This document shows, piece by piece, positions 2,235-16,605 of a stretch of 33,586 nt of DNA (the first letter of the stretch is position 1; every line of letters begins with the position of its first letter). The stretch lies in NCBI GenBank assembly GCA_004322425.1, contig SCVJ01000050.1:1-33586 (forward strand). Reading direction: 5' to 3'. This stretch comes from Chitinophagaceae bacterium (lineage in GTDB: Bacteria; Bacteroidota; Bacteroidia; Chitinophagales; Chitinophagaceae). A program made the translations under genes and the position numbers. The notes below the pieces were generated by a model that saw only the letters and a program-made list of their open reading frames with translations, was not told the origin of the DNA and searched no databases.

Positions 2235-4397
2235 ATGTTACAACAACCTATTCGTAAAATATTTGACATGGGCAATGGCCGCATGGTTACAATTGAAACA
2301 GGTCGCCTTGCTCGACAAGCTCATGGAGCCGTTACAGTATCTGTTGGAAATTGTATGCTGTTAGCAACAGTAGTGGCAAATAAGGAAGCAAAAGAGGGAC
2401 AAGGTTTCTTTCCATTATCGGTAGATTATCAAGAAAAATTTGCAGCAGCAGGACGTATTCCGGGCTCATTTTTTAAAAGAGAAGCGCGATTAAATGATTA
2501 TGAAATTTTAACAAGTCGATTAATTGACCGTGCATTACGCCCTTTATTCCCTGAAGATTATTTATGTGAAGTGCAGGTTTTAATATCGTTAATTTCTAGC
2601 GATAAGGAAATTATGCCCGATGCATTAGCTTGTTTAGCAGCTTCTGCTGCTTTTGCAGTTTCAGATATTCCAATTAAAGAAATTATTTCAGAAGTAAGAG
2701 TGGCTAGAGTTGATGGAGTATTTATTGTAAATCCAACTCGGAGTGAATTGGAAAAGTCTGATTTGAATTTCATTGTTGCAGCCAGCGAAAAGAATTTGAT
2801 AATGGTGGAAGGTGAAGCAAAGGAATGTAGCGAAGCCGAATTAGTTGATGTTTTAAAAATTGCACACGATGCAATTCGAATTCAAATTAAAGCACAAGAA
2901 GAACTTAGAACACTTGCCGGAGTTACAAACAAGAGAGATTACAAAAAAATAGAACAAGATGCAATTCTTCGTTCAAAAGTAGAATCATTTGCAAAGGACA
3001 AAGTTTATGCAGTTGCAAAAGGGAAATACAGTAAACATGAAAGAAGTAAAAAATTTGATGAGATCAAAACAGAGCTTGTCGATTTTTTAAAGAAAGATTT
3101 GAGCCTTGCTGATGGAGAGAATTTGCCGGATGCAACTAAAAAATTCATGAACACATACTATGGCGATTTGCAATATGACGTTGTTCGTGACATGATTTTA
3201 GATGAAAAAGTTAGATTAGATGGAAGAGATTTGGAGACCGTACGTCCTTTAGATATGGAAGTTGCTGTCTTACCATCTCCACACGGTTCAGCATTATTTA
3301 CAAGAGGTGAAACACAATCGTTAACAACAATTACTTTAGGAACTCCTTTAGATGAACTTTTGGTTGAAAGTGCAGCTGTTTCGGTGGATTCTAAATTTTA
3401 CTTACATTATAATTTCCCTCCGTTTTCAACAGGAGAAGTAAAAATGATGCGTGGCCAAAGTCGTCGTGAAGTTGGACATGGAAACCTTGCAATGCGTTCA
3501 TTAAAACAAATGATGCCAAAAGGAGATTTTGCTTATACAGTTCGTGTAGTAAGCGATATTTTAGAATCCAATGGGTCATCTTCTATGGCTACTGTTTGTG
3601 CCGGATCACTTGCCTTAATGGATTGTGGTATTCCGGTTCCAAAGCACGTTTCTGGAGTTGCAATGGGTTTAATAACAAAGGGGGATAAATATGCTGTTTT
3701 AACTGATATTTTAGGCGACGAAGATCATTTGGGCGATATGGATTTTAAAGTAACAGGAACTCGCGATGGAATTTGCGGTGTTCAAATGGATATAAAAGTA
3801 GATGGGTTGAAAATGGAAGTTATGGAGAGCGCATTAGCGCAAGCTCGTCGTGGAAGATTACACATTTTGGATGCGATGTATGCTTGTATTCCAGTGGCAA
3901 ATGAAGAAGTTAAACCACATGCTCCTCGAATGATAAAAATGTATGTTGAAAAAGAATTCATTGGAGCTGTAATAGGACCAGGTGGAAAAGTAATTCAAGA
4001 AATGCAACGAGTGACTGGAACTACTATTAGCATCGAAGAGATTAATAATATGGGCGAAGTGAGTGTATTTGGTGTAAACAAAGAAGGAGTACAAAAAGCC
4101 GAGGCTTGGATTAAAGGGTTGGTTGCTGTTCCCGTAGTTGGCGATGTTTATGAATCAACTGTTAAATCAATTATGCCATTCGGAGCTTTTGTTGAATTCT
4201 TACCGGGTAAACAAGGCCTAGTTCATATTAGTGAAGTAAGCTGGAAAAGATTAGAAACATTGGACGGTATTTTGCAAGAAGGCGATAAAGTAAAAGTAAA
4301 ATTAATTGGTACCGATCCTAAATCAGGTAAGTTTAAATTGTCAAGGAAAGCATTGATTCCAAGACCTGAGCGCCAAGATGGTCCATCTGAAAACTAA
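2235..4397 (+). CDS. pnp: Polyribonucleotide nucleotidyltransferase (PNPase)
   Basis: PNPase is the trimeric phosphorolytic 3'-5' exoribonuclease of mRNA decay. The 720-residue protein has the full architecture: a first RNase PH-like domain (from MGNGRMVTIETGRLARQA), an all-helical linker, a second RNase PH core with FTRGETQSL and the FSTGE block, a KH domain with FIGAVIGPGGKVIQEMQ (about 575-595), and an S1 domain (about 635-708; GAFVEFLPGKQGLVHISE). Length is normal. The 129-base leader is very AT-rich. It holds only a weak promoter-like pair, TTTC (2137-2140) and TATTTTTC (2161-2168) spaced by 20 bases, each lacking the final G, so transcription may come mostly from rpsO. A clear terminator follows. 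Confidence 0.97.
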   Translation: MLQQPIRKIFDMGNGRMVTIETGRLARQAHGAVTVSVGNCMLLATVVANKEAKEGQGFFPLSVDYQEKFAAAGRIPGSFFKREARLNDYEILTSRLIDRALRPLFPEDYLCEVQVLISLISSDKEIMPDALACLAASAAFAVSDIPIKEIISEVRVARVDGVFIVNPTRSELEKSDLNFIVAASEKNLIMVEGEAKECSEAELVDVLKIAHDAIRIQIKAQEELRTLAGVTNKRDYKKIEQDAILRSKVESFAKDKVYAVAKGKYSKHERSKKFDEIKTELVDFLKKDLSLADGENLPDATKKFMNTYYGDLQYDVVRDMILDEKVRLDGRDLETVRPLDMEVAVLPSPHGSALFTRGETQSLTTITLGTPLDELLVESAAVSVDSKFYLHYNFPPFSTGEVKMMRGQSRREVGHGNLAMRSLKQMMPKGDFAYTVRVVSDILESNGSSSMATVCAGSLALMDCGIPVPKHVSGVAMGLITKGDKYAVLTDILGDEDHLGDMDFKVTGTRDGICGVQMDIKVDGLKMEVMESALAQARRGRLHILDAMYACIPVANEEVKPHAPRMIKMYVEKEFIGAVIGPGGKVIQEMQRVTGTTISIEEINNMGEVSVFGVNKEGVQKAEAWIKGLVAVPVVGDVYESTVKSIMPFGAFVEFLPGKQGLVHISEVSWKRLETLDGILQEGDKVKVKLIGTDPKSGKFKLSRKALIPRPERQDGPSEN

Positions 4398-8504: not shown

Positions 8505-10640
8505 ATGTCAGAATTCGATACTTCACATGTAAAAAATATTGTTTTACTGGGCCATGCCGGTTCCGGTAAAACATCTTTAGCGGAGTGCATGTTATTTGAA
8601 GCTGGTGTTATTACACGAAAAGGAAGTATTACAGAACACAACACTATAGGCGATTATCACGAATTAGAACAACAACGAGGCAATTCCATCTTCAGCAAAT
8701 TGCTACACGCAAAATGGCGTGGTTACAAAATAAATATTATTGACACACCGGGTTATGATGATTTTTCTGGCGAAGTAATCGCGGCACTTCGCGTTGCAGA
8801 TACCGGAGTAATGTTATTAAATGCGTCAATGGGAGTTGAGGTGGGAACTGATATTATTTGGGAATACACCGAGAAATTTAAAACCCCAATGATTTTCGCG
8901 GTTAACAAACTGGATGAATTGGATGCTGATTTTGAACGAACTGTTAGAGAAGCCAAACTTCATTTTGGCAATAAAGTAACTGTAGTACAATACCCATTGC
9001 AAACAGGAGATGGTTTTCATGAAATAATTGATGTTTTGCGAATGACGATGTATCAATTCAAAGATGCTGGAGGGAAACCTGAAAAGTTGCCTATTCCAGA
9101 TTCCGAAAAAGAAAAAGCTGAATTATTGCATAAAGAATTAATTGAAGCAGTTGCAGGAAACGATGAACTGTTGATGGAACAATATTTTGAAAAAGGAGAA
9201 CTGAATGAAGATGAGATTAAGTCGGGATTGAGAAGTGCTATGATTCATCACGATTTATTCCCTCTTTTTTGCTTGTCAGCTCAAAAAAATATGGGAAGTG
9301 GGCGACTGATGGGATTTATTGATAATGTTTGTCCGAGTGCCAATGAAATGCCAGCACAGCTAACTAAATTAGGGGAAAAACTAAAGTGCGATGCCTCAGG
9401 TCCTGCTTGTATTTTTATTTATAAAACAATTAGTGAGCCACACGTTGGAGATCTTTCTTTTTTCAAAGTTTATTCTGGTACAATAAAAAGTGGAATGGAA
9501 TTAGAAAACGAAACCACCGGCGTTAATGAAAAGCTGGCACAACTATTTTTAGTGGAAGGAAATAAAAGAACTGCTATAAACGAATTAGTGGCCGGTGATA
9601 TTGGTGCCACACTCAAACTAAAAAATACACATACCAATAACACGTTACATATTCGAGGTAAAAATTACGAATTACCTGCTATTGAATTTCCTGCACCCAA
9701 TATGACGGTGGCAATTGAGCCCACAAAAAAAGGAGAGGAAGAAAAACTGTCCATTGCTTTGCATCAATTAAAAGAAGAGGATCCTACTTTGAAAGTAGAA
9801 GTTTCAACCGAGTTAAAACAAACATTAATCCATTGCCAGGGCGATATGCACCTCGCAGTTGCAAAATGGAAAATCGAACACAACCACAAGCTGGAGGTTA
9901 AATTTCAAAAACCGAAAATTCCATATCGAGAAACAATTAGAAAAATGGCCGATTCCAATTATCGACACAAAAAACAAAGTGGAGGATCGGGACAGTTTGG
10001 TGAAGTGTACTTGCGCATTGAACCTTGGGTGGAAGGAATGCCCGAGCCACAGGGATTAAATGTTCGTGGAAGAGATACGCACGATTTGGAATGGGGCGGC
10101 AAACTTGTTTTTTACAATTGCATTGTGGGAGGTGCAATTGACACTCGTTTTCTTCCTGCCATTTTAAAAGGAGTGATGGAAAAAATGCACAACGGACCGC
10201 TCACTGGTTCTTATGCTCGCGACATTCGAGTTTGTGTTTACGATGGTAAAATGCATCCGGTGGATAGTAATGATATTTCTTTTAAGATAGCGGGATTGCA
10301 AGCTTTTCGTCAGGCTTTTCAACTAGCCGATCCGCAAATTTTAGAACCCATTTATCACGTGGAAGCACTTTGTCCTGATGATATTACTGGTGCTGTAATG
10401 GGTGATTTGCAAACACGTCGAGCAATTGTAGAAGGAATTGATACAGAAGGAAATTTTCAAAAAATTATTGCCCGTGTACCTCAAATAGAAATGGACGGTT
10501 ATTCTTCTTCCTTGCGATCCATTACTCAAGGACGAGCCAAATTTCGTTCTTCATTTTTGGAATATTCTCCCGTTACATTTGAACTGCAACGGAGATTAAT
10601 TGATGAACACAGTAAAACCACAAAGGAGGAATTGGGGTAG
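8505..10640 (+). CDS. EF-G-like translational GTPase (EF-G paralogue)
   Basis: The 711-residue protein has the five-domain layout of elongation factor G: P-loop GHAGSGKT (16-23), switch I region with RGNSIFSK (59-66), DTPGYDDF (80-87), NKLD (134-137), and domain IV with HKKQSGGSGQFGEV. It differs from canonical EF-G: the P-loop is GHAGSGKT instead of GHIDAGKT, and switch II reads DTPGY where canonical EF-G has DTPGH, so the GTPase-activating histidine is replaced by tyrosine. These features match the EF-G2/FusA2-type paralogues, whose role is less clear than ribosomal translocation. No str operon genes (rpsL, rpsG, tuf) surround it, supporting a paralogue rather than the main fusA. Upstream is an unknown coiled-coil gene at 47 bases. 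Confidence 0.88.
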   Translation: MSEFDTSHVKNIVLLGHAGSGKTSLAECMLFEAGVITRKGSITEHNTIGDYHELEQQRGNSIFSKLLHAKWRGYKINIIDTPGYDDFSGEVIAALRVADTGVMLLNASMGVEVGTDIIWEYTEKFKTPMIFAVNKLDELDADFERTVREAKLHFGNKVTVVQYPLQTGDGFHEIIDVLRMTMYQFKDAGGKPEKLPIPDSEKEKAELLHKELIEAVAGNDELLMEQYFEKGELNEDEIKSGLRSAMIHHDLFPLFCLSAQKNMGSGRLMGFIDNVCPSANEMPAQLTKLGEKLKCDASGPACIFIYKTISEPHVGDLSFFKVYSGTIKSGMELENETTGVNEKLAQLFLVEGNKRTAINELVAGDIGATLKLKNTHTNNTLHIRGKNYELPAIEFPAPNMTVAIEPTKKGEEEKLSIALHQLKEEDPTLKVEVSTELKQTLIHCQGDMHLAVAKWKIEHNHKLEVKFQKPKIPYRETIRKMADSNYRHKKQSGGSGQFGEVYLRIEPWVEGMPEPQGLNVRGRDTHDLEWGGKLVFYNCIVGGAIDTRFLPAILKGVMEKMHNGPLTGSYARDIRVCVYDGKMHPVDSNDISFKIAGLQAFRQAFQLADPQILEPIYHVEALCPDDITGAVMGDLQTRRAIVEGIDTEGNFQKIIARVPQIEMDGYSSSLRSITQGRAKFRSSFLEYSPVTFELQRRLIDEHSKTTKEELG

Positions 10641-10764: not shown

Positions 10765-11502
10765 ATGGCATTGCAAGAAGAAATGGAGCAGCAGGGAAAC
10801 TGGCTGTTTCGCTATCGTAGTTATCTTCCCATCATTATTCTTTTTATTGCACTGGGGGTTTTTCTGTATGAAAAAAAATCAGCAAGCCCTTGTCCAACAA
10901 CGTTATATTTTCAAATGGCTTGTTTACTAATAAGCTTGCTTGGCTTGGTTATCAGAATTTACACAGTTGGTTATACTCCAAAAAATACTTCGGGCAGAAA
11001 TGTAGAAGGGCAGGTGGCCGAATTTTTAAATACAAGTGGTATTTATTCTGTGGTGCGTCATCCTTTGTACCTCGGTAATTTTTTTATGTGGCTAGGTCCT
11101 GCGGCATTAACTGCAAACAGTTGGTTCATTATTGCTTTTTGTTTTTTCTATTGGGTTTATTACGAACGAATCATGTTTGCCGAAGAGCAATTTTTAAGAA
11201 GAAAATTTGGAGCTGCGTATGAAGATTGGGCTAAAAAAACTCCTGCATTTTTCCCGGCTTGTAAAAAAATAATTTCTTCGCAACTTACTTTTAGTTGGAA
11301 AAAAGTGTTGAAGAAAGAAAAAAATGGATTGGTGGCTGTGTTTTTAATTTTCACTTTGTTTGATATTTCGGGGAAGTGGATGACTAATCAAACAGACTAC
11401 AATTATATTCTAATCATTGCATCGGGAATTTCAGTTCTACTTTACTTATTGCTAAAATACCTGAAGAGTTACACTACGTTACTAGAAGAAGACGGACGAT
11501 AA
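10765..11502 (+). CDS. Membrane methyltransferase of the isoprenylcysteine carboxyl methyltransferase (ICMT/PEMT) type
   Basis: The 245-residue protein has several hydrophobic segments (about 23-38, 52-69, 99-135 and two C-terminal ones near 190-235). Its core carries the hallmarks of the ICMT/PEMT-type integral membrane methyltransferases: SVVRHPLYLGNFFMWLG (about 94-110), and EEQFLRRKFGAAYEDWAKKTPAFFP (about 138-162 in outline), which forms the SAM-binding and catalytic C-terminal part. Bacterial members have no prenylated protein substrate in most cases, so the acceptor is unknown; a lipid or lipid-linked group is a guess. Two extra C-terminal membrane segments follow the catalytic core, longer than minimal family members. 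It has its own -7 box and converges with the sugar-oxidation operon, ending 22 bases before it. Confidence 0.75.
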   Translation: MALQEEMEQQGNWLFRYRSYLPIIILFIALGVFLYEKKSASPCPTTLYFQMACLLISLLGLVIRIYTVGYTPKNTSGRNVEGQVAEFLNTSGIYSVVRHPLYLGNFFMWLGPAALTANSWFIIAFCFFYWVYYERIMFAEEQFLRRKFGAAYEDWAKKTPAFFPACKKIISSQLTFSWKKVLKKEKNGLVAVFLIFTLFDISGKWMTNQTDYNYILIIASGISVLLYLLLKYLKSYTTLLEEDGR

Positions 11503-11524: not shown

Positions 11525-12949
11525 TTACAGATTCAGGCTCCAACCATCTCTGTATTCTCTTTTTACAAATTGATTTGCTTCTTCAAAATTGGTAATGCTC
11601 ATATTTTTAGAATCCCATAATAATTTTTTTCTTCCTAACCATTTATCACCCCAACCTGTAAGTTTTGGATTTTTTATCAAGAAACTACGAATAGCCAAAT
11701 TTCCAATTAAAATACTTTCTGTAAAAGGTCCAGCATATTCAAATGGAGAGCTAGTTTCGGCATTGCCATAACCGGCAATACAGGCATTAACCCATTGCTG
11801 ATAATGTCCTTCGGGCACTCGTTTAATAGTTTCTTTTGGCATTTTCTTTTCCTTCATCAGTTTTGTTGGTAGCAGTTGTGGGTTTTGTCCATAACAATCA
11901 ATTAACATTTTTCCTTTTGTTCCAACAAGTAATACTCCACCATCCCAATTTCCAAAGGCTTCCTCAGGTAAAAGTTCATCGGGTCTTTGTGGTAATAATC
12001 CTCCATCAAACCACGATACTTTTATATTCCCTTTTCCATCTGTTCTTGGGTAATTGAGATGAATGATTGATGAAGCAGGGAATGCATCTTGATTTTGCGT
12101 GTCATTCCACATTTCTCTCCAAATAGTTGCCATACTGCATTCTACGGAATCGGGATATTGAATAGGTAATATTCTATAAATAGGATCCATAATATGGCAA
12201 GCCATATCGCCCAATGCTCCAGTTCCAAATGCACTCCAACCTCTCCAGTTGAACGGCAAATAAGCAGGATTGTAATCAATTTTTTTGGATGGGCCCAACC
12301 ATAAATCCCAATCCAATTCTTTTGGAATTTCATGAACACCCGAAGGTGTTGGAATTCCTTGTGGCCATACAGGACGGTTAGTCCACGCATAAGCAGTATG
12401 TACAGAACCAATCATTCCAGCTTCATACATTTCTTTGGCTTTACGAACTCCATCGCCAGAACCACCTTGATTACCCATTTGTGTAATTACTTTATATTTT
12501 CTTGCAGCTTCGGTTAATATTCTTGCTTCGTAAATATCGTGTGTCAGCGGTTTTTGAGTGTACACATGTTTGCCTAATTGCATAGCTGCAATTGTAGCTA
12601 CGGCATGTGTGTGATCGGGTGTTGAAATGGAAACAGCATCAATATTTTTATGCTCTTTTTCCAGCATCTCTCTAAAATCTCGGTAGTAAGTAGCGGAAGA
12701 AAAACTTTTACGAGAAGCCGCCGCTTCTCTATCGTCAACATCGCAGAGGGATACAATATTTACTTTACCACTTTTAAAAAATTCAGCCAAATCGCTTCTG
12801 CCTTTTCCGCCAACACCAATGCCGGCAATATTTAATTTATCGCTGGGTGCTATAAATCCTCGGCCCATTACTGAACGAGGAATTATAAAAAATCCGGCAG
12901 TTGAAAACGATATATTTCTTATAAATTTTCTTCTTGATGGATGTTGCAT
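11525..12949 (-). CDS. Tat-exported Gfo/Idh/MocA family oxidoreductase
   Basis: This 474-residue protein begins with a twin-arginine signal (SRRKFIRN, residues 5-12, then a hydrophobic stretch), predicting export in folded form with bound NAD(P). The Rossmann domain shows IAGIGVGGKGR (41-51) and ISTPDHTHA (108-116), with TQKPLTHD (131-138) holding the catalytic lysine; most cytoplasmic family members have EKP here instead of QKP. The C-terminal domain contains GALGDMACHIMDP, characteristic of the secreted subfamily found in Bacteroidota and Planctomycetes. These enzymes act on sugars or sugar acids, some in oxidation or reduction of 3-keto-glycosides. It is the last gene of a minus-strand operon, 21 bases after the small subunit, linking it functionally to the GMC dehydrogenase. 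Confidence 0.9.
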   Translation of the reverse strand: MQHPSRRKFIRNISFSTAGFFIIPRSVMGRGFIAPSDKLNIAGIGVGGKGRSDLAEFFKSGKVNIVSLCDVDDREAAASRKSFSSATYYRDFREMLEKEHKNIDAVSISTPDHTHAVATIAAMQLGKHVYTQKPLTHDIYEARILTEAARKYKVITQMGNQGGSGDGVRKAKEMYEAGMIGSVHTAYAWTNRPVWPQGIPTPSGVHEIPKELDWDLWLGPSKKIDYNPAYLPFNWRGWSAFGTGALGDMACHIMDPIYRILPIQYPDSVECSMATIWREMWNDTQNQDAFPASSIIHLNYPRTDGKGNIKVSWFDGGLLPQRPDELLPEEAFGNWDGGVLLVGTKGKMLIDCYGQNPQLLPTKLMKEKKMPKETIKRVPEGHYQQWVNACIAGYGNAETSSPFEYAGPFTESILIGNLAIRSFLIKNPKLTGWGDKWLGRKKLLWDSKNMSITNFEEANQFVKREYRDGWSLNL

Positions 12950-12970
12950 AATTTATTTCTATTCTTAATT

Positions 12971-13627
12971 TTAACTATCAAAACGAATACATTCAAACAA
13001 TTCTTTTTCGGAATAAGTCAAACCATATTGGGCTAAAACTTCAGTGGGTACTCCATTCCATTGATTGGGTGTATTTCCTTTATAGCCGATATCTTTTACA
13101 CCTTCCTGCGAAGTATAAAAACCGGTTGATGTAAGATCTCGCATTAAACTGAAAAATTTTACACCCTGACTCATTTCTGGTTTTGCTCTTTTTGGAAAAG
13201 CTATTTTATCAACTACCGATAGTTGTTCAGTTGGAGTACAATCAAAAAAAGATTTATCATACTTTTTTAAGCAGTAAATATCTAACCATCGTAATCCACC
13301 TTTCATGGGTACTTGATGGCTGGGCATATCCTTAACAATAAAAGCAATAAATTCTGGAACCTTGGCTTCACTGGCACTACCACTAATTTCATCAGCAGGA
13401 ATAATAATATCGGCAAGAACAGTAATTGTTTTCATTTCATGAACTGTAAAAAAATCAGGTTCTGACAATAATTTTTTTTCTCTTTCAAATTCTTCTTTAG
13501 CACGATCGAGATTAAATTTTGGTTCAGTTACTTTATTATTCTGTTCAGTATTAGTACATCCAATAACCACTGCACCTGTTGCTATTGCACCTGTGGCAAG
13601 AATTTTTAATGATTTTCTACGATCCAT
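12971..13627 (-). CDS. Gluconate 2-dehydrogenase subunit 3 family protein (Tat-type lipoprotein)
   Basis: This 218-residue protein matches the small (gamma) subunit family of membrane-bound FAD sugar dehydrogenases: FTVHEMKTITVLADIIIPAD (about 59-78), then a helical region and the SQGVKFFSLMRDLTSTGFYTS block (about 154-174), with GYKGNTPNQWNG near the end. The N-terminus has RRKSLKIL followed by a hydrophobic segment ending VVIGC, so both a Tat motif and a lipobox are present; the mature protein would be anchored by the cysteine at about residue 24. In characterised complexes this subunit carries the Tat signal for the signal-less catalytic subunit. The gene starts 9 bases after the GMC gene, so co-expression is expected. 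Confidence 0.88.
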   Translation of the reverse strand: MDRRKSLKILATGAIATGAVVIGCTNTEQNNKVTEPKFNLDRAKEEFEREKKLLSEPDFFTVHEMKTITVLADIIIPADEISGSASEAKVPEFIAFIVKDMPSHQVPMKGGLRWLDIYCLKKYDKSFFDCTPTEQLSVVDKIAFPKRAKPEMSQGVKFFSLMRDLTSTGFYTSQEGVKDIGYKGNTPNQWNGVPTEVLAQYGLTYSEKELFECIRFDS

Positions 13628-13636
13628 AAAAGCAAG

Positions 13637-15385
13637 TTAAAGATTATTTTTTTTCATTTCGGAAATAATATATTCACTGGCACGCATACTCAATGCCAAA
13701 ATAGTCCAAGTAATATTTTTATCAGCTTGGCTTACAAAAGCAGCACCATCCACAACGAATAAGTTTTTACAATCATGTGCTTGATTCCATTTGTTCAATG
13801 CCGATTTTTTAGAATCATTTCCCATTCTAACAGTTCCAGCTTCATGAATAATTTTTCCGGGAGCTTCCAATCCGTAATCATTCTCAGGTCCATCGTCAGC
13901 ACCCCAAGTAGTAATAGCACCCATATTGTGCATAATTTCCTTAAAGGTTTCCTTCATGTGTTTTGCTTGATTTATTTCATAATCACTCCATTTTACATTG
14001 AAGCGTAAAACAGGAATTCCGTATTTATCAACTGTAGTCGGATCTATTTCGCAATAATTATCTTCTCGAGGAATTGCTTCTCCACGACCAGCCATACCAA
14101 CTCCGGCACCATAAAAGAAACGATGATCTTCTTTCAAAGATTTTCCATAACCACCAGCTTCTTTTTGCTGTCCTTTTACTAAAAATTTACCATTTAGATT
14201 TTCCATTCCAAATCCAAAACCATAAGCAGGTTGGCTCATGCCTCCCCAATATTCAATATGATATCCTCGCGGAAAATCAAGCTTTTTATTATCCAACCAC
14301 CAAGGAGAATAAACGTGCAGTCCTCCAACTCCATCTTCATTATATCTTTTTCTATCAAACAATTGAGGTAATAATCCACCCATTGCAGCACCAGTGGAAT
14401 CGTGTAAATATTTACCGACTACATTACTACTATTTGCAAGTCCATTCGGATAACGAACAGACTTTGAGTTGAGTAAAAGTCTGGAAGATTCACAAGCACT
14501 AGCAGCAAGTATCACCACGCGACCACTTACTTCATATTCCATCATATCATCTTTATTGATATAGGAAACACCAGTTGCTAAACCGTCTTTGTTTGTTAAT
14601 ACTTCGCGAACCATTGCATTGGCAACAACATCAATATTTCCGGTTTTCATTGCAGGATAAATTAAAACATTACTCGAAGAAAAATCGGCTTTAGCCATGC
14701 TACAATTTCGATTGCACTGCCCGCAATAAAAACATGCATTACGGTCGCCGTGTTGTTCTTCTTTTTTTGTAATGATAGAAAGTCGAGATGGAATTACAGT
14801 AACGCCGGATGTTGCCGCAGCATTTTTTATCATTAGTTCATGAAGCCGAGGTTTTGGTGGTGGTAGAAAATAACCGTCAGGGTCATTTACTAAACCTTCA
14901 TTTGTTCCAAAAATTCCAATCAATTTATCAATACGATCGTAAAAAGGTTTTACATCTTCGTAACCAATAGGCCAATTATCTCCCAATCCATCAATACTTT
15001 TTCGTTTAAAATCGTGTGGGCCAAATCGAAGTGAAATTCTTCCCCAATGGTTTGTTCTTCCCCCTAACATTCTTGCTCGCCACCAATCCCATTTAGTTCC
15101 TGCTGTATGCGTATAAGGCTCTCCTTCAATATCCCATCCATAATAGCAAGCATCAAAATCTCCGAAAGGACGAAACTTAGTACTTGCACCACGACGAGGG
15201 CTATCCCAGGGATTTTTTAATTGCGTAATGTTTTTTTGTGGATCATACATGGAACCGGCTTCCAATAAACAAACTTTCAAACCAGCGTTTGCAAGAGTAT
15301 AAGCTGCCATGCCGCCACCTGCGCCGGAACCCACAATAACAGCGTCATAAAATTTTGATTGTTTCTTTATTTGAATGGATTCCAT
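13637..15385 (-). CDS. GMC-family FAD sugar dehydrogenase with four-cysteine cluster motif
   Basis: This 582-residue flavoenzyme has the dinucleotide-binding VGSGAGGG (18-25) and LLEAGS (40-45), the GGRTNHWGR block (108-116) near the flavin, and a C-terminal HEAGTVRMG (H514) and DKNITW (N557) giving the usual GMC catalytic His/Asn pair. Residues 218-228 read CFYCGQCNRNC, four cysteines (218, 221, 224, 228). A cysteine cluster in the equivalent region binds a 3Fe-4S centre in FAD-glucose dehydrogenases, so an iron-sulphur relay is likely here. The protein has no signal peptide of its own; export by hitchhiking on the Tat signal of the following small subunit is the expected mechanism. It is the first gene of a three-gene operon. 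The substrate (a sugar, glycoside or sugar acid) is not determinable from sequence alone. Confidence 0.92.
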   Translation of the reverse strand: MESIQIKKQSKFYDAVIVGSGAGGGMAAYTLANAGLKVCLLEAGSMYDPQKNITQLKNPWDSPRRGASTKFRPFGDFDACYYGWDIEGEPYTHTAGTKWDWWRARMLGGRTNHWGRISLRFGPHDFKRKSIDGLGDNWPIGYEDVKPFYDRIDKLIGIFGTNEGLVNDPDGYFLPPPKPRLHELMIKNAAATSGVTVIPSRLSIITKKEEQHGDRNACFYCGQCNRNCSMAKADFSSSNVLIYPAMKTGNIDVVANAMVREVLTNKDGLATGVSYINKDDMMEYEVSGRVVILAASACESSRLLLNSKSVRYPNGLANSSNVVGKYLHDSTGAAMGGLLPQLFDRKRYNEDGVGGLHVYSPWWLDNKKLDFPRGYHIEYWGGMSQPAYGFGFGMENLNGKFLVKGQQKEAGGYGKSLKEDHRFFYGAGVGMAGRGEAIPREDNYCEIDPTTVDKYGIPVLRFNVKWSDYEINQAKHMKETFKEIMHNMGAITTWGADDGPENDYGLEAPGKIIHEAGTVRMGNDSKKSALNKWNQAHDCKNLFVVDGAAFVSQADKNITWTILALSMRASEYIISEMKKNNL

Positions 15386-15804: not shown

Positions 15805-16605
15805 TTATTTAGTTTTGAAAGGTAAAGAAGGATTACTAATCCATTTTAGAAGTGTAGCTCCTAAAGAGTATAAAAATCCGTAGATACCAAGAATAACATA
15901 GAAAGCAGCAGCTACTTGTATAACGTCAACATAAGATCTTACAAGTGTTTCAAGGCCAGCAGCATTCCAACCACCTGCAGTTCTTGCAGCAACGGAGGTG
16001 TAGCTATTTAAATCTAAAGAAACATCAAGCTTTAAACAAGTAAATGCATGATCTAATACACCGTTCATTGCAGTTACAGCCCAGCTATAAGTTGGTGCAA
16101 TAAAAGTATTAACAGCGGAAAGAGCGCCAGAAGCTTCAGAGAAAAGGCCAGCACCATTTAATAATGTGCCTACAGTAACTACAACAGCAGAAACTAAAGC
16201 GGTTACCGCAGTTACTTCTCCTACTAGGCGGATATTGGTTTTCATGAAATCATGCAATAAAAAACGAATCACTCCAGAATCACCAGTTCCCAAAGAGTCG
16301 CCTCTTGAGCGGATAATTTGTGTTAATGGAAATGCAGCATACAAGCAAATTACAGCAGTAAGAACGCTACCGGCTTTTGAAAGCATGTCGCCATCGCCAC
16401 CTAAAAAAGAAGCTGCAGCAGTAGCAGTAGCCCAAAGCATTGATAAAAGAACTACAAAAGCAAGTAATTGATAAATACATTTAAAATAGCATCTGATTCC
16501 ATTGTTAGAATCGAAGCCATCAACCATGCCGCCAATTTTTGCTCCTAGTACACGATCATTAATCTGACCTGGGAAATCGAGAACTTGTTGATAGATTTTT
16601 TTCAT
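15805..16605 (-). CDS. Unrecognised four-helix membrane protein
   Basis: I do not recognise this 266-residue protein. It has four likely membrane segments: about 45-68 (LLAFVVLLSMLWATATAAAS), 78-97, 128-150 (very V/A/T-rich) and 226-253. There is no signal peptide; the N-terminal 40 residues are polar and include KIGGMVDGFDSNNGIRCYFKC. The segment between helices 3 and 4 (about 151-225) is a long loop, rich in A, S, N and T, with a single cysteine at 190. Composition is unusually rich in alanine and valine compared with its neighbours. The gene ends with the strongest terminator in the window. I find no motif that indicates an enzyme or transporter. ATG at 16605 is the only reasonable start. 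Confidence 0.72.
   Translation of the reverse strand: MKKIYQQVLDFPGQINDRVLGAKIGGMVDGFDSNNGIRCYFKCIYQLLAFVVLLSMLWATATAAASFLGGDGDMLSKAGSVLTAVICLYAAFPLTQIIRSRGDSLGTGDSGVIRFLLHDFMKTNIRLVGEVTAVTALVSAVVVTVGTLLNGAGLFSEASGALSAVNTFIAPTYSWAVTAMNGVLDHAFTCLKLDVSLDLNSYTSVAARTAGGWNAAGLETLVRSYVDVIQVAAAFYVILGIYGFLYSLGATLLKWISNPSLPFKTK

Follow-up and report, generated by a model that had tools for sequence, protein, structure and literature searches.

A GMC flavoprotein operon of a Chitinophagaceae bacterium probably encodes the glycoside 3-dehydrogenase of an apparently split 3-ketoglycoside pathway and carries a four-cysteine loop

What does a flavoprotein oxidise that seems to leave the cytoplasm only in the company of another protein, and where do its electrons go when no cytochrome gene stands beside it? 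The question is raised by three open reading frames (ORFs) in a stretch of 33,586 nucleotides from a Chitinophagaceae bacterium (assembly GCA_004322425.1, contig SCVJ01000050.1, positions 1 to 33,586), the whole of which we call the window. They encode a flavoprotein of the GMC family, a small subunit and a Gfo/Idh/MocA oxidoreductase (gene 3 hereafter), and lie on the minus strand, separated by 9 and 21 bases, just as an earlier note, made from the sequence, had described. That note proposed periplasmic oxidation of a sugar or glycoside, an iron-sulfur (Fe-S) relay, a small subunit bearing a twin-arginine translocation (Tat) signal and a link to keto-sugar chemistry, all of which our analysis supports. 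Its model for the oxidation was flavin adenine dinucleotide (FAD)-dependent glucose dehydrogenase; oxidation of a sugar is still what we expect, but the LacABC-type 3-ketoglycoside pathway is a closer model than glucose oxidised at C1, and the position attacked is probably C3. We consider it quite likely that the GMC protein and its small subunit form the envelope-bound glycoside 3-dehydrogenase of this known pathway. The module would then be a known kind of system with two peculiarities, namely a variant of the Fe-S loop that runs through its clade and a split arrangement of the genes.

Which genes keep company with the GMC gene? We counted relatives of the GMC protein at E values up to 1e-60 in a sample of 98 genomes of the same family, representing 97 genera, and found them in 69, with an identity of at least 60% over the matched part in 64. 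A strong match to PF06439, the family of 3-keto-disaccharide hydrolases, was present in 68 of the 69 GMC-positive genomes versus 1 of the 29 GMC-negative ones (Fisher p 3e-22). The same was true, with counts of 66/69 versus 1/29 in both cases (Fisher p 5e-20), of relatives of gene 3 and of relatives of a cytochrome c that we describe below. In at least 57 of 67 genomes the cytochrome c gene starts no more than 1.6 kb from the start of the PF06439 gene; for genome G000, the half of a cut cytochrome gene that lies on contig C157 was used in this count. Weak PF06439 matches, all of them in GMC-negative genomes (G001, G005, G015, G020, G026 and G044), were counted as absent, and the Pfam cut-off itself was exceeded in 71 of the 98 genomes versus the 69 counted as strong.

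Several points weigh against too simple a reading of these associations. The Fisher p values ignore the relatedness of the genomes, five of the 69 GMC-positive genomes carry only GMCs of 34-36% identity, and if every PF06439 match at E up to 0.001 is counted, the family is found in 7 of the 29 GMC-negative genomes. There are also individual exceptions: the GMC occurs without PF06439 in G069, without a cytochrome match in G014, G027 and G030 and without a gene 3 relative in G019, G041 and G069, while G015 has the cytochrome, and G012 (72% complete) both PF06439 and a gene 3 relative, in a genome with no GMC.

Where are these partners in the genome of the window? Genome searches found a single gene of the small-subunit family, PF13618, and a single PF06439 gene, so there is no evident backup copy of either. 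The PF06439 gene (169.4 bits) occupies positions 288-902 at the start of contig C157. On another contig, C22, a run of Gfo/Idh, TIM-barrel and cytochrome c genes reaches the edge, and a transporter gene and another TIM-barrel gene are divergent from them. The ends of C22 and C157 share an exact overlap of 120 bases within the cytochrome c gene, which the contig break cuts. In a sister genome (G093) the region is intact (locus L119) and lies on the same contig as the GMC operon, approximately 220 kb from it; the sister's operon (locus L002, contig SYIK01000005.1) has the same three genes, whose products are 91, 77 and 89% identical to those of the window. The pathway thus appears to be complete but split in this genome, and because it is divided over loci the earlier reader saw no cytochrome gene.

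There is indeed no cytochrome gene beside the window genes, and the operon thus contains no three-heme cytochrome c gene of the type that accompanies the Burkholderia cepacia FAD-glucose dehydrogenase (BcGDH). The electron acceptor is not wholly open, however, as the note had left it: a search of the whole genome for c-type cytochromes yielded the candidate that adjoins the PF06439 gene on C22/C157, and it is a monoheme protein, with one CxxCH motif in the window genome, in the sister and in all ten members of its cluster (cluster 8). A caution here is that the same genome encodes other cytochromes c. On contig C209 (L083, 36-1827), for example, a PF07995 glucose/sorbosone dehydrogenase family protein is directly followed by a small cytochrome c, possibly another sugar dehydrogenase and cytochrome pair. 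The window genome also has TatC, and its gene for a cytochrome oxidase subunit II is clustered with NrfD-type and multiheme genes.

The genes that are separated in the window genome stand together elsewhere. At loci L015 and L026 a one-piece cluster contains the GMC, the small subunit, a BT2158-like Gfo/Idh, a second Gfo/Idh, a TIM-barrel protein (AP_endonuc_2), the cytochrome c and PF06439. Locus L012 has the same order up to the cytochrome, where the stretch of sequence ends, L028 has the set without a TIM-barrel call, and in L029, L035 and L038 the BT2158-like gene is missing from it. Divergent from these clusters are transporter genes, a TIM-barrel enzyme and a second GMC, in some cases with its own small subunit. 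(The family scan covered L015, together with a single transporter of L026 and two L029 genes.) Beyond the Bacteroidota, a plasmid of Xanthomonas sacchari carries a GMC, a small subunit, DUF1080, a cytochrome c, an isomerase, a Gfo/Idh and a nucleoside permease, and a Pseudoalteromonas plasmid carries a related set with no cytochrome annotated within the stretch. A Caulobacter control genome was positive for both PF13618 and PF06439. It counts against any general rule of linkage that, of the 64 loci where 5.5 kb or more of sequence is available downstream, only 12 have a PF06439-type gene there on the same strand.

The nearest solved structures can also be read in favour of a rival explanation, in which the substrate of the GMC protein is a free sugar, attacked at C1 or another carbon in the style of FAD-glucose dehydrogenase, fructose dehydrogenase (FDH) or pyranose 2-oxidase, and the keto-sugar genes are unrelated to it. 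Both phmmer/profile and fold searches place the catalytic subunits of FDH and BcGDH nearest. The best profile match is the large subunit of Gluconobacter FDH (PDB 7w2j; nearly full length, E 7.1e-59). In VIA-align the FDH entries reach Z scores of 37.4-40.1 (six entries, with 9jqa_A at Z 40.1, 3.5 Angstrom over 497 residues) and 33.5 (8xcn), those of BcGDH 34.8-35.1 (8grj_B at Z 35.1, 3.5 Angstrom over 488 residues), and Foldseek also ranks these two enzymes first for the GMC model. Just behind them in VIA-align come a C-glycoside oxidase (7dve_A, Z 33.6) and the pyranose 2-oxidases (Z 31.4-33.4). That the nearest solved relatives act on glucose or fructose, with pyranose 2-oxidases close in fold, speaks against a 3-dehydrogenase, as does our finding no enzyme of the window GMC's own clade with a measured reaction; in NCBIfam the GMC protein had only matches far below their cut-offs. 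But the identity to FDH and BcGDH is only 22-26%, strong PF06439 matches follow the presence of the GMC across the family, and PF06439 stands in the same one-piece clusters at Bacteroidota loci and on two proteobacterial plasmids. We therefore regard this explanation as very unlikely, and a glycoside 3-dehydrogenase as the better description.

How would such an enzyme reach the periplasm? The small subunit matches PF13618 (Gluconate_2-dh3) with 113.2 bits against a cut-off of 23.4, and its N terminus, read by eye as MDRRKSLK...VVIGC, has the Tat signal and lipobox (lipobox cysteine C24) that the earlier note had seen. The RR motif is conserved in 111 of 112 small-subunit rows. The note called the module as a whole exported, and this stands for the small subunit and gene 3, which have twin-arginine starts of their own, but the GMC protein has no visible signal peptide, so that it can count as exported only if the small subunit takes it along. 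The partnership is a constant one. A scan with one genome per species gave at least 590 confirmed GMC relatives, and among the best 80 of these, which were used for the locus counts, the GMC gene (at least 60% identity) has an ORF that fits the small-subunit profile no more than 900 bases away on the same strand in 80/80 loci, or 77/80 under a stricter choice of ORFs. Gene 3 is less faithful to the position, and this weighs against treating the three genes as a fixed unit: a relative lies directly 3' of the small-subunit gene in only 11 of the 73 loci with room for it, and the three-gene order of the window is a minority arrangement. The structure model of the small subunit (mean predicted local distance difference test, pLDDT, 74.0) had no PDB match at E 0.001 in Foldseek, profile searches returned none up to E 10, and NCBIfam had no family for it at E 0.001. 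The gamma subunit of BcGDH is absent from the match lists at those thresholds (profile E 10, Foldseek E 0.001), an absence that excludes nothing.

Taken as a glycoside 3-dehydrogenase, the system would probably work as follows. The small subunit, with its Tat signal and lipobox, would carry the folded flavoprotein across the inner membrane as a passenger, and the GMC complex would oxidise glycosides at the C3 hydroxyl of one of their sugar residues. From FAD the electrons would pass to an Fe-S cluster in the C218-C228 loop, from there to the monoheme cytochrome c, a putative lipoprotein, and on to an oxidase. The PF06439 hydrolase would then cleave the 3-keto-glycoside, and an MFS-type transporter together with further enzymes of the Gfo/Idh and TIM-barrel kinds would serve in the uptake and the reduction or isomerisation of the 3-keto sugar. 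In this genome the dehydrogenase and gene 3 lie in the window, and C22/C157 carries the cytochrome and hydrolase genes along with those for a second Gfo/Idh, the transporter and two TIM-barrel enzymes.

The cysteine loop that is the proposed site of the relay is also where the window GMC differs from its solved relatives. Translation of the ORF confirmed the four cysteines C218, C221, C224 and C228 and the H514/N557 pair that the earlier note had listed. In BcGDH the ligands of a [3Fe-4S] cluster are described as Cys212, Cys218 and Cys222 (PMC6719666), and in a phmmer alignment C218, C224 and C228 fall on these three residues with the same C-x5-C-x3-C spacing. The same three cysteines align in FDH (7w2j), and both enzymes have Asn at the position of C221. 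Of the four cysteines listed in the note, three thus match known ligands, but C221 matches none.

Is C221, then, an accident? We aligned 130 GMC proteins including that of the window, of which 92 were at least 60% identical to it and 38 more distant; ORFs of 400 residues or fewer and hmmsearch matches above E 1e-20 were left out, and two sets of 20 regions were picked by hand to span the range of identity. C218, C224 and C228 are kept in 128 of the 130. In the two exceptions, L114 and L116, which are encoded on plasmids of Pantoea and Rhizobium, the entire cysteine loop is missing, and beside neither could a small-subunit gene be found; it seems from these alignments that their branch has lost the Fe-S relay. 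Both also have Gly aligned at the position of the catalytic Asn. C221 is present in 92/92 of the close relatives, whereas the 38 distant proteins have R (33), A (1), N (1), C (1) or a gap (2) there. The single distant cysteine belongs to L107, encoded on a plasmid of Alteromonas sp. I4 (2510-4222) with the loop CHYCGPCENGC, and, because this protein branches within the R group in a FastTree tree (taken without support values), its cysteine suggests a separate gain of the four-cysteine loop. At eight loci (L012, L015, L026, L028, L029, L032, L035 and L038) a second GMC, approximately 33% identical, lies divergent from the first and has Arg at the place of C221, with a small subunit beside it in 5 of the 8.

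The loop of the window protein, kept in all 92 close relatives, has its four cysteines at the spacing C-x2-C-x2-C-x3-C, which is that of [4Fe-4S] ferredoxins. Ferredoxin variants that hold [3Fe-4S] have another residue in the second cysteine place, the position at which ferredoxins switch between the two types of cluster, and the distant GMCs resemble them in this. We therefore propose, and only propose, that C221 may turn the cluster of the window GMC into a [4Fe-4S] one. That respiratory glycoside 3-dehydrogenases might, throughout a large branch within the Bacteroidota, have four-cysteine [4Fe-4S] clusters in the place of the three-cysteine [3Fe-4S] of BcGDH, with a second gain in an Alteromonas lineage, is a tentative idea to which we give slightly less than even credence. 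Searches of open-licence literature, some of them aimed at this point, listed no title or abstract opening that describes a four-cysteine or [4Fe-4S] sugar dehydrogenase of the GMC family. The AlphaFold2 model of the GMC protein (37 aligned sequences), with a mean pLDDT of 73.6, falls below 50 over residues 203-237 and so says nothing on the geometry of the loop.

The alternative is that C221 is not a cluster ligand and forms an inter-subunit disulfide with C213 near the C terminus of the small subunit. The two cysteines occur jointly in 84 of 92 close pairs, and both are lacking in the paralogues. None of the 19 small subunits found beside a GMC that has R or A at 221 contains C213, nor does that of any of the 20 distant pairs in which a small subunit was found. 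There is also a precedent, since Cys213 of the BcGDH catalytic subunit is described as bonded to Cys152 of the gamma subunit (PMC6719666). Yet the joint occurrence may merely mirror a single clade, and other small-subunit cysteines, that of the lipobox excepted, vary (C119 in 60 of 83 rows, C130 in 67). Moreover, C221 is present in the Alteromonas protein L107, and it is kept in six close pairs whose small subunit has no C213 (L103, L140, L141, L142, L143 and L145; of the eight such pairs, L013 at a contig end and L077, with an early end and possible frameshift, were set aside). Because of these six pairs C221 is probably more than a disulfide partner, and we judge a disulfide in place of a ligand to be rather unlikely.

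A further residue may bear on the flavin itself. H113 aligns with His105 of BcGDH, for which a covalent bond to FAD is described as one that "might form" (PMC6719666), and it is kept in all 92 GMCs of at least 60% identity versus 4 of the 38 others. Because of this alignment and conservation, a covalently bound flavin is possible in the window GMC also.

What part does gene 3 play? The predicted protein begins MQHPSRRKFIRN, a twin-arginine N terminus as read by eye, and matches the NCBIfam model NF058561, for the BT_2158 glycoside 3-dehydrogenase, with 497.1 bits over residues 5-461; its PDB matches include 8tdf (E 3.8e-101) and 8tdh (E 2.7e-98). Membership of the NF058561 equivalog was rejected, as the score lies under the curated cut-off of 750. 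The earlier note had remarked on a QKP motif in place of EKP. The motif is present, and the chain in PDB 8tdf has EKP in its stead, but QKP is no anomaly: 34 of the 35 rows of gene 3 relatives carry it (52 to 100% identity, window included, with rows L139 and L154 being one gene counted twice), so that it is the norm. The periplasm is not known to contain a free nicotinamide pool, and Tat-exported Gfo/Idh enzymes bind their cofactor tightly. Gene 3 therefore most likely retains a tightly bound nicotinamide cofactor, by means of which it would exchange hydride between 3-keto sugars and hydroxy sugars on the periplasmic side.

Could gene 3, and not the GMC complex, be the enzyme that makes the 3-keto glycoside? 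In this rival explanation gene 3 would act like BT2158 and the GMC complex would take other substrates or just reoxidise, the two being parallel first steps. The literature describes BT2158 as a glycoside 3-dehydrogenase of the periplasm, whose deletion is reported to leave cells without growth on trehalose, leucrose and palatinose (PMC11300592); to this are added the 497 bits to its model and the fact that gene 3 relatives co-occur with the GMC as tightly as the cytochrome does. On the other side are the shortfall of that score against the equivalog cut-off and the description of a putative LacABC-type dehydrogenase as important for the use of glycosides by Pedobacter (PMC9007349). We find it rather unlikely that gene 3 has taken over the first step, though the explanation is compatible with a glycoside 3-dehydrogenase function of the GMC complex and the two are not mutually exclusive.

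The nature of the glycoside is a separate matter. The C22 cluster (L097, 4799-11010) runs on into genes for CutC, an asparaginase-2 family protein, a GH20 hexosaminidase and a glucosamine-6-phosphate isomerase family protein, a continuation hinting at an amino-sugar link. Together with CutC and a BadF/BadG-type ATPase family protein in the Pseudoalteromonas cluster, it would suit a substrate containing N-acetylglucosamine in place of a glucoside or galactoside. As this argument rests on adjacency, and the genes may form a separate amino-sugar operon, we think such a substrate distinctly improbable.

The coordinates of the three genes and of the residues discussed are collected in Table 1.

Table 1. 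Genes and residues of the operon, with positions in the window.
Feature	Position	Strand	Remarks
GMC flavoprotein, catalytic subunit	13637..15385	-	582 aa; PF05199 and PF00732 (GMC_oxred_N/C); no visible signal peptide
Small subunit	12971..13627	-	218 aa; PF13618; Tat signal and lipobox in residues 1-24; C-terminal C213
Gene 3, Gfo/Idh/MocA oxidoreductase	11525..12949	-	474 aa; Pfam GFO_IDH_MocA; twin-arginine N terminus; BT_2158-related
Putative Fe-S loop C218-x2-C221-x2-C224-x3-C228	14702..14734	-	CFYCGQCNRNC; from aligned GMCs and the BcGDH alignment
H113 of GMC	15047..15049	-	aligned with BcGDH His105; possible covalent FAD link
H514 of GMC His/Asn pair	13844..13846	-	His in 129/130 aligned rows, gap in the remaining one
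N557 of GMC His/Asn pair	13715..13717	-	Asn in 125/130 aligned rows
QKP motif, gene 3 residues 132-134	12548..12556	-	QKP in 34/35 rows, EKP in 1

Around the operon the window encodes proteins of other kinds. At 8505-10640 (+) there is an elongation factor G2-type protein (EFG2_Bacteroid, 1017.7 bits, above the cut-off of 1000), and at 10765-11502 (+) a membrane methyltransferase-like protein that matches the model for the Leptospira lipid A Kdo2 1-phosphate O-methyltransferase over its full length with 246.5 bits versus a cut-off of 325. On the other side, 15805-16605 (-) encodes a protein of 266 residues without a convincing Pfam family; a protein of the same length and with a near-identical start adjoins the GMC operon in the sister genome.

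Two testable gaps follow from these observations. The candidate for the cytochrome that takes the electrons is now a definite gene, beside the hydrolase gene in at least 57 of 67 genomes, and a changed Fe-S cluster may mark this branch of the family. If the cluster is [4Fe-4S], it would alter the potential of the relay and with it the electron partner, here a separate monoheme cytochrome. If nature has made a [3Fe-4S]/[4Fe-4S] variant, it would have practical interest too, as relatives are described as enzymes studied for direct electron transfer to electrodes.

How does the window system stand among those already known? Compared by description, it resembles LacABC in being a periplasmic multi-component dehydrogenase tied to a DUF1080 (PF06439) hydrolase, a transporter, two epimerases and a reductase, a combination present in Bacteroidota too. 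It differs in that its pathway is split over two loci, its candidate cytochrome stands with the hydrolase and a BT2158-like Gfo/Idh gene belongs to the dehydrogenase operon. We take both a PF13618-type small subunit and a c-type cytochrome to be components of LacABC. FDH (7w2j) differs in having fructose as its substrate and Asn at the 221 position, and presumably in the multiheme subunit of the Gluconobacter enzyme. With BcGDH (PDB 6a2u/8grj) the window system shares the GMC fold, the His/Asn pair and three Fe-S cysteines of the same spacing. Its small subunit may be a "hitchhiker" like that of BcGDH, although profile searches up to E 10 gave no sequence match between the two. BcGDH has Asn at the 221 position in the alignment, and it is described as having an extra cysteine of its own elsewhere (Cys213, in a disulfide) and a three-heme subunit (PMC6719666). 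The 3-ketoglycoside pathway of Caulobacter crescentus, as described, comprises lacABC, a DUF1080 hydrolase, a transporter, two epimerases and a reductase, and in Pedobacter sp. GW460-11-11-14-LB5 a putative dehydrogenase is described as important for lactose, salicin and other glycosides (PMC9007349). The glucoside 3-dehydrogenase of Rhizobium radiobacter, again by description, is an FAD enzyme named for C3 with a separate monoheme c acceptor, its monoheme cytochrome c being reported as the electron acceptor (PMC9915066). By analogy, the window system probably works like these Caulobacter, Pedobacter and R. radiobacter systems.

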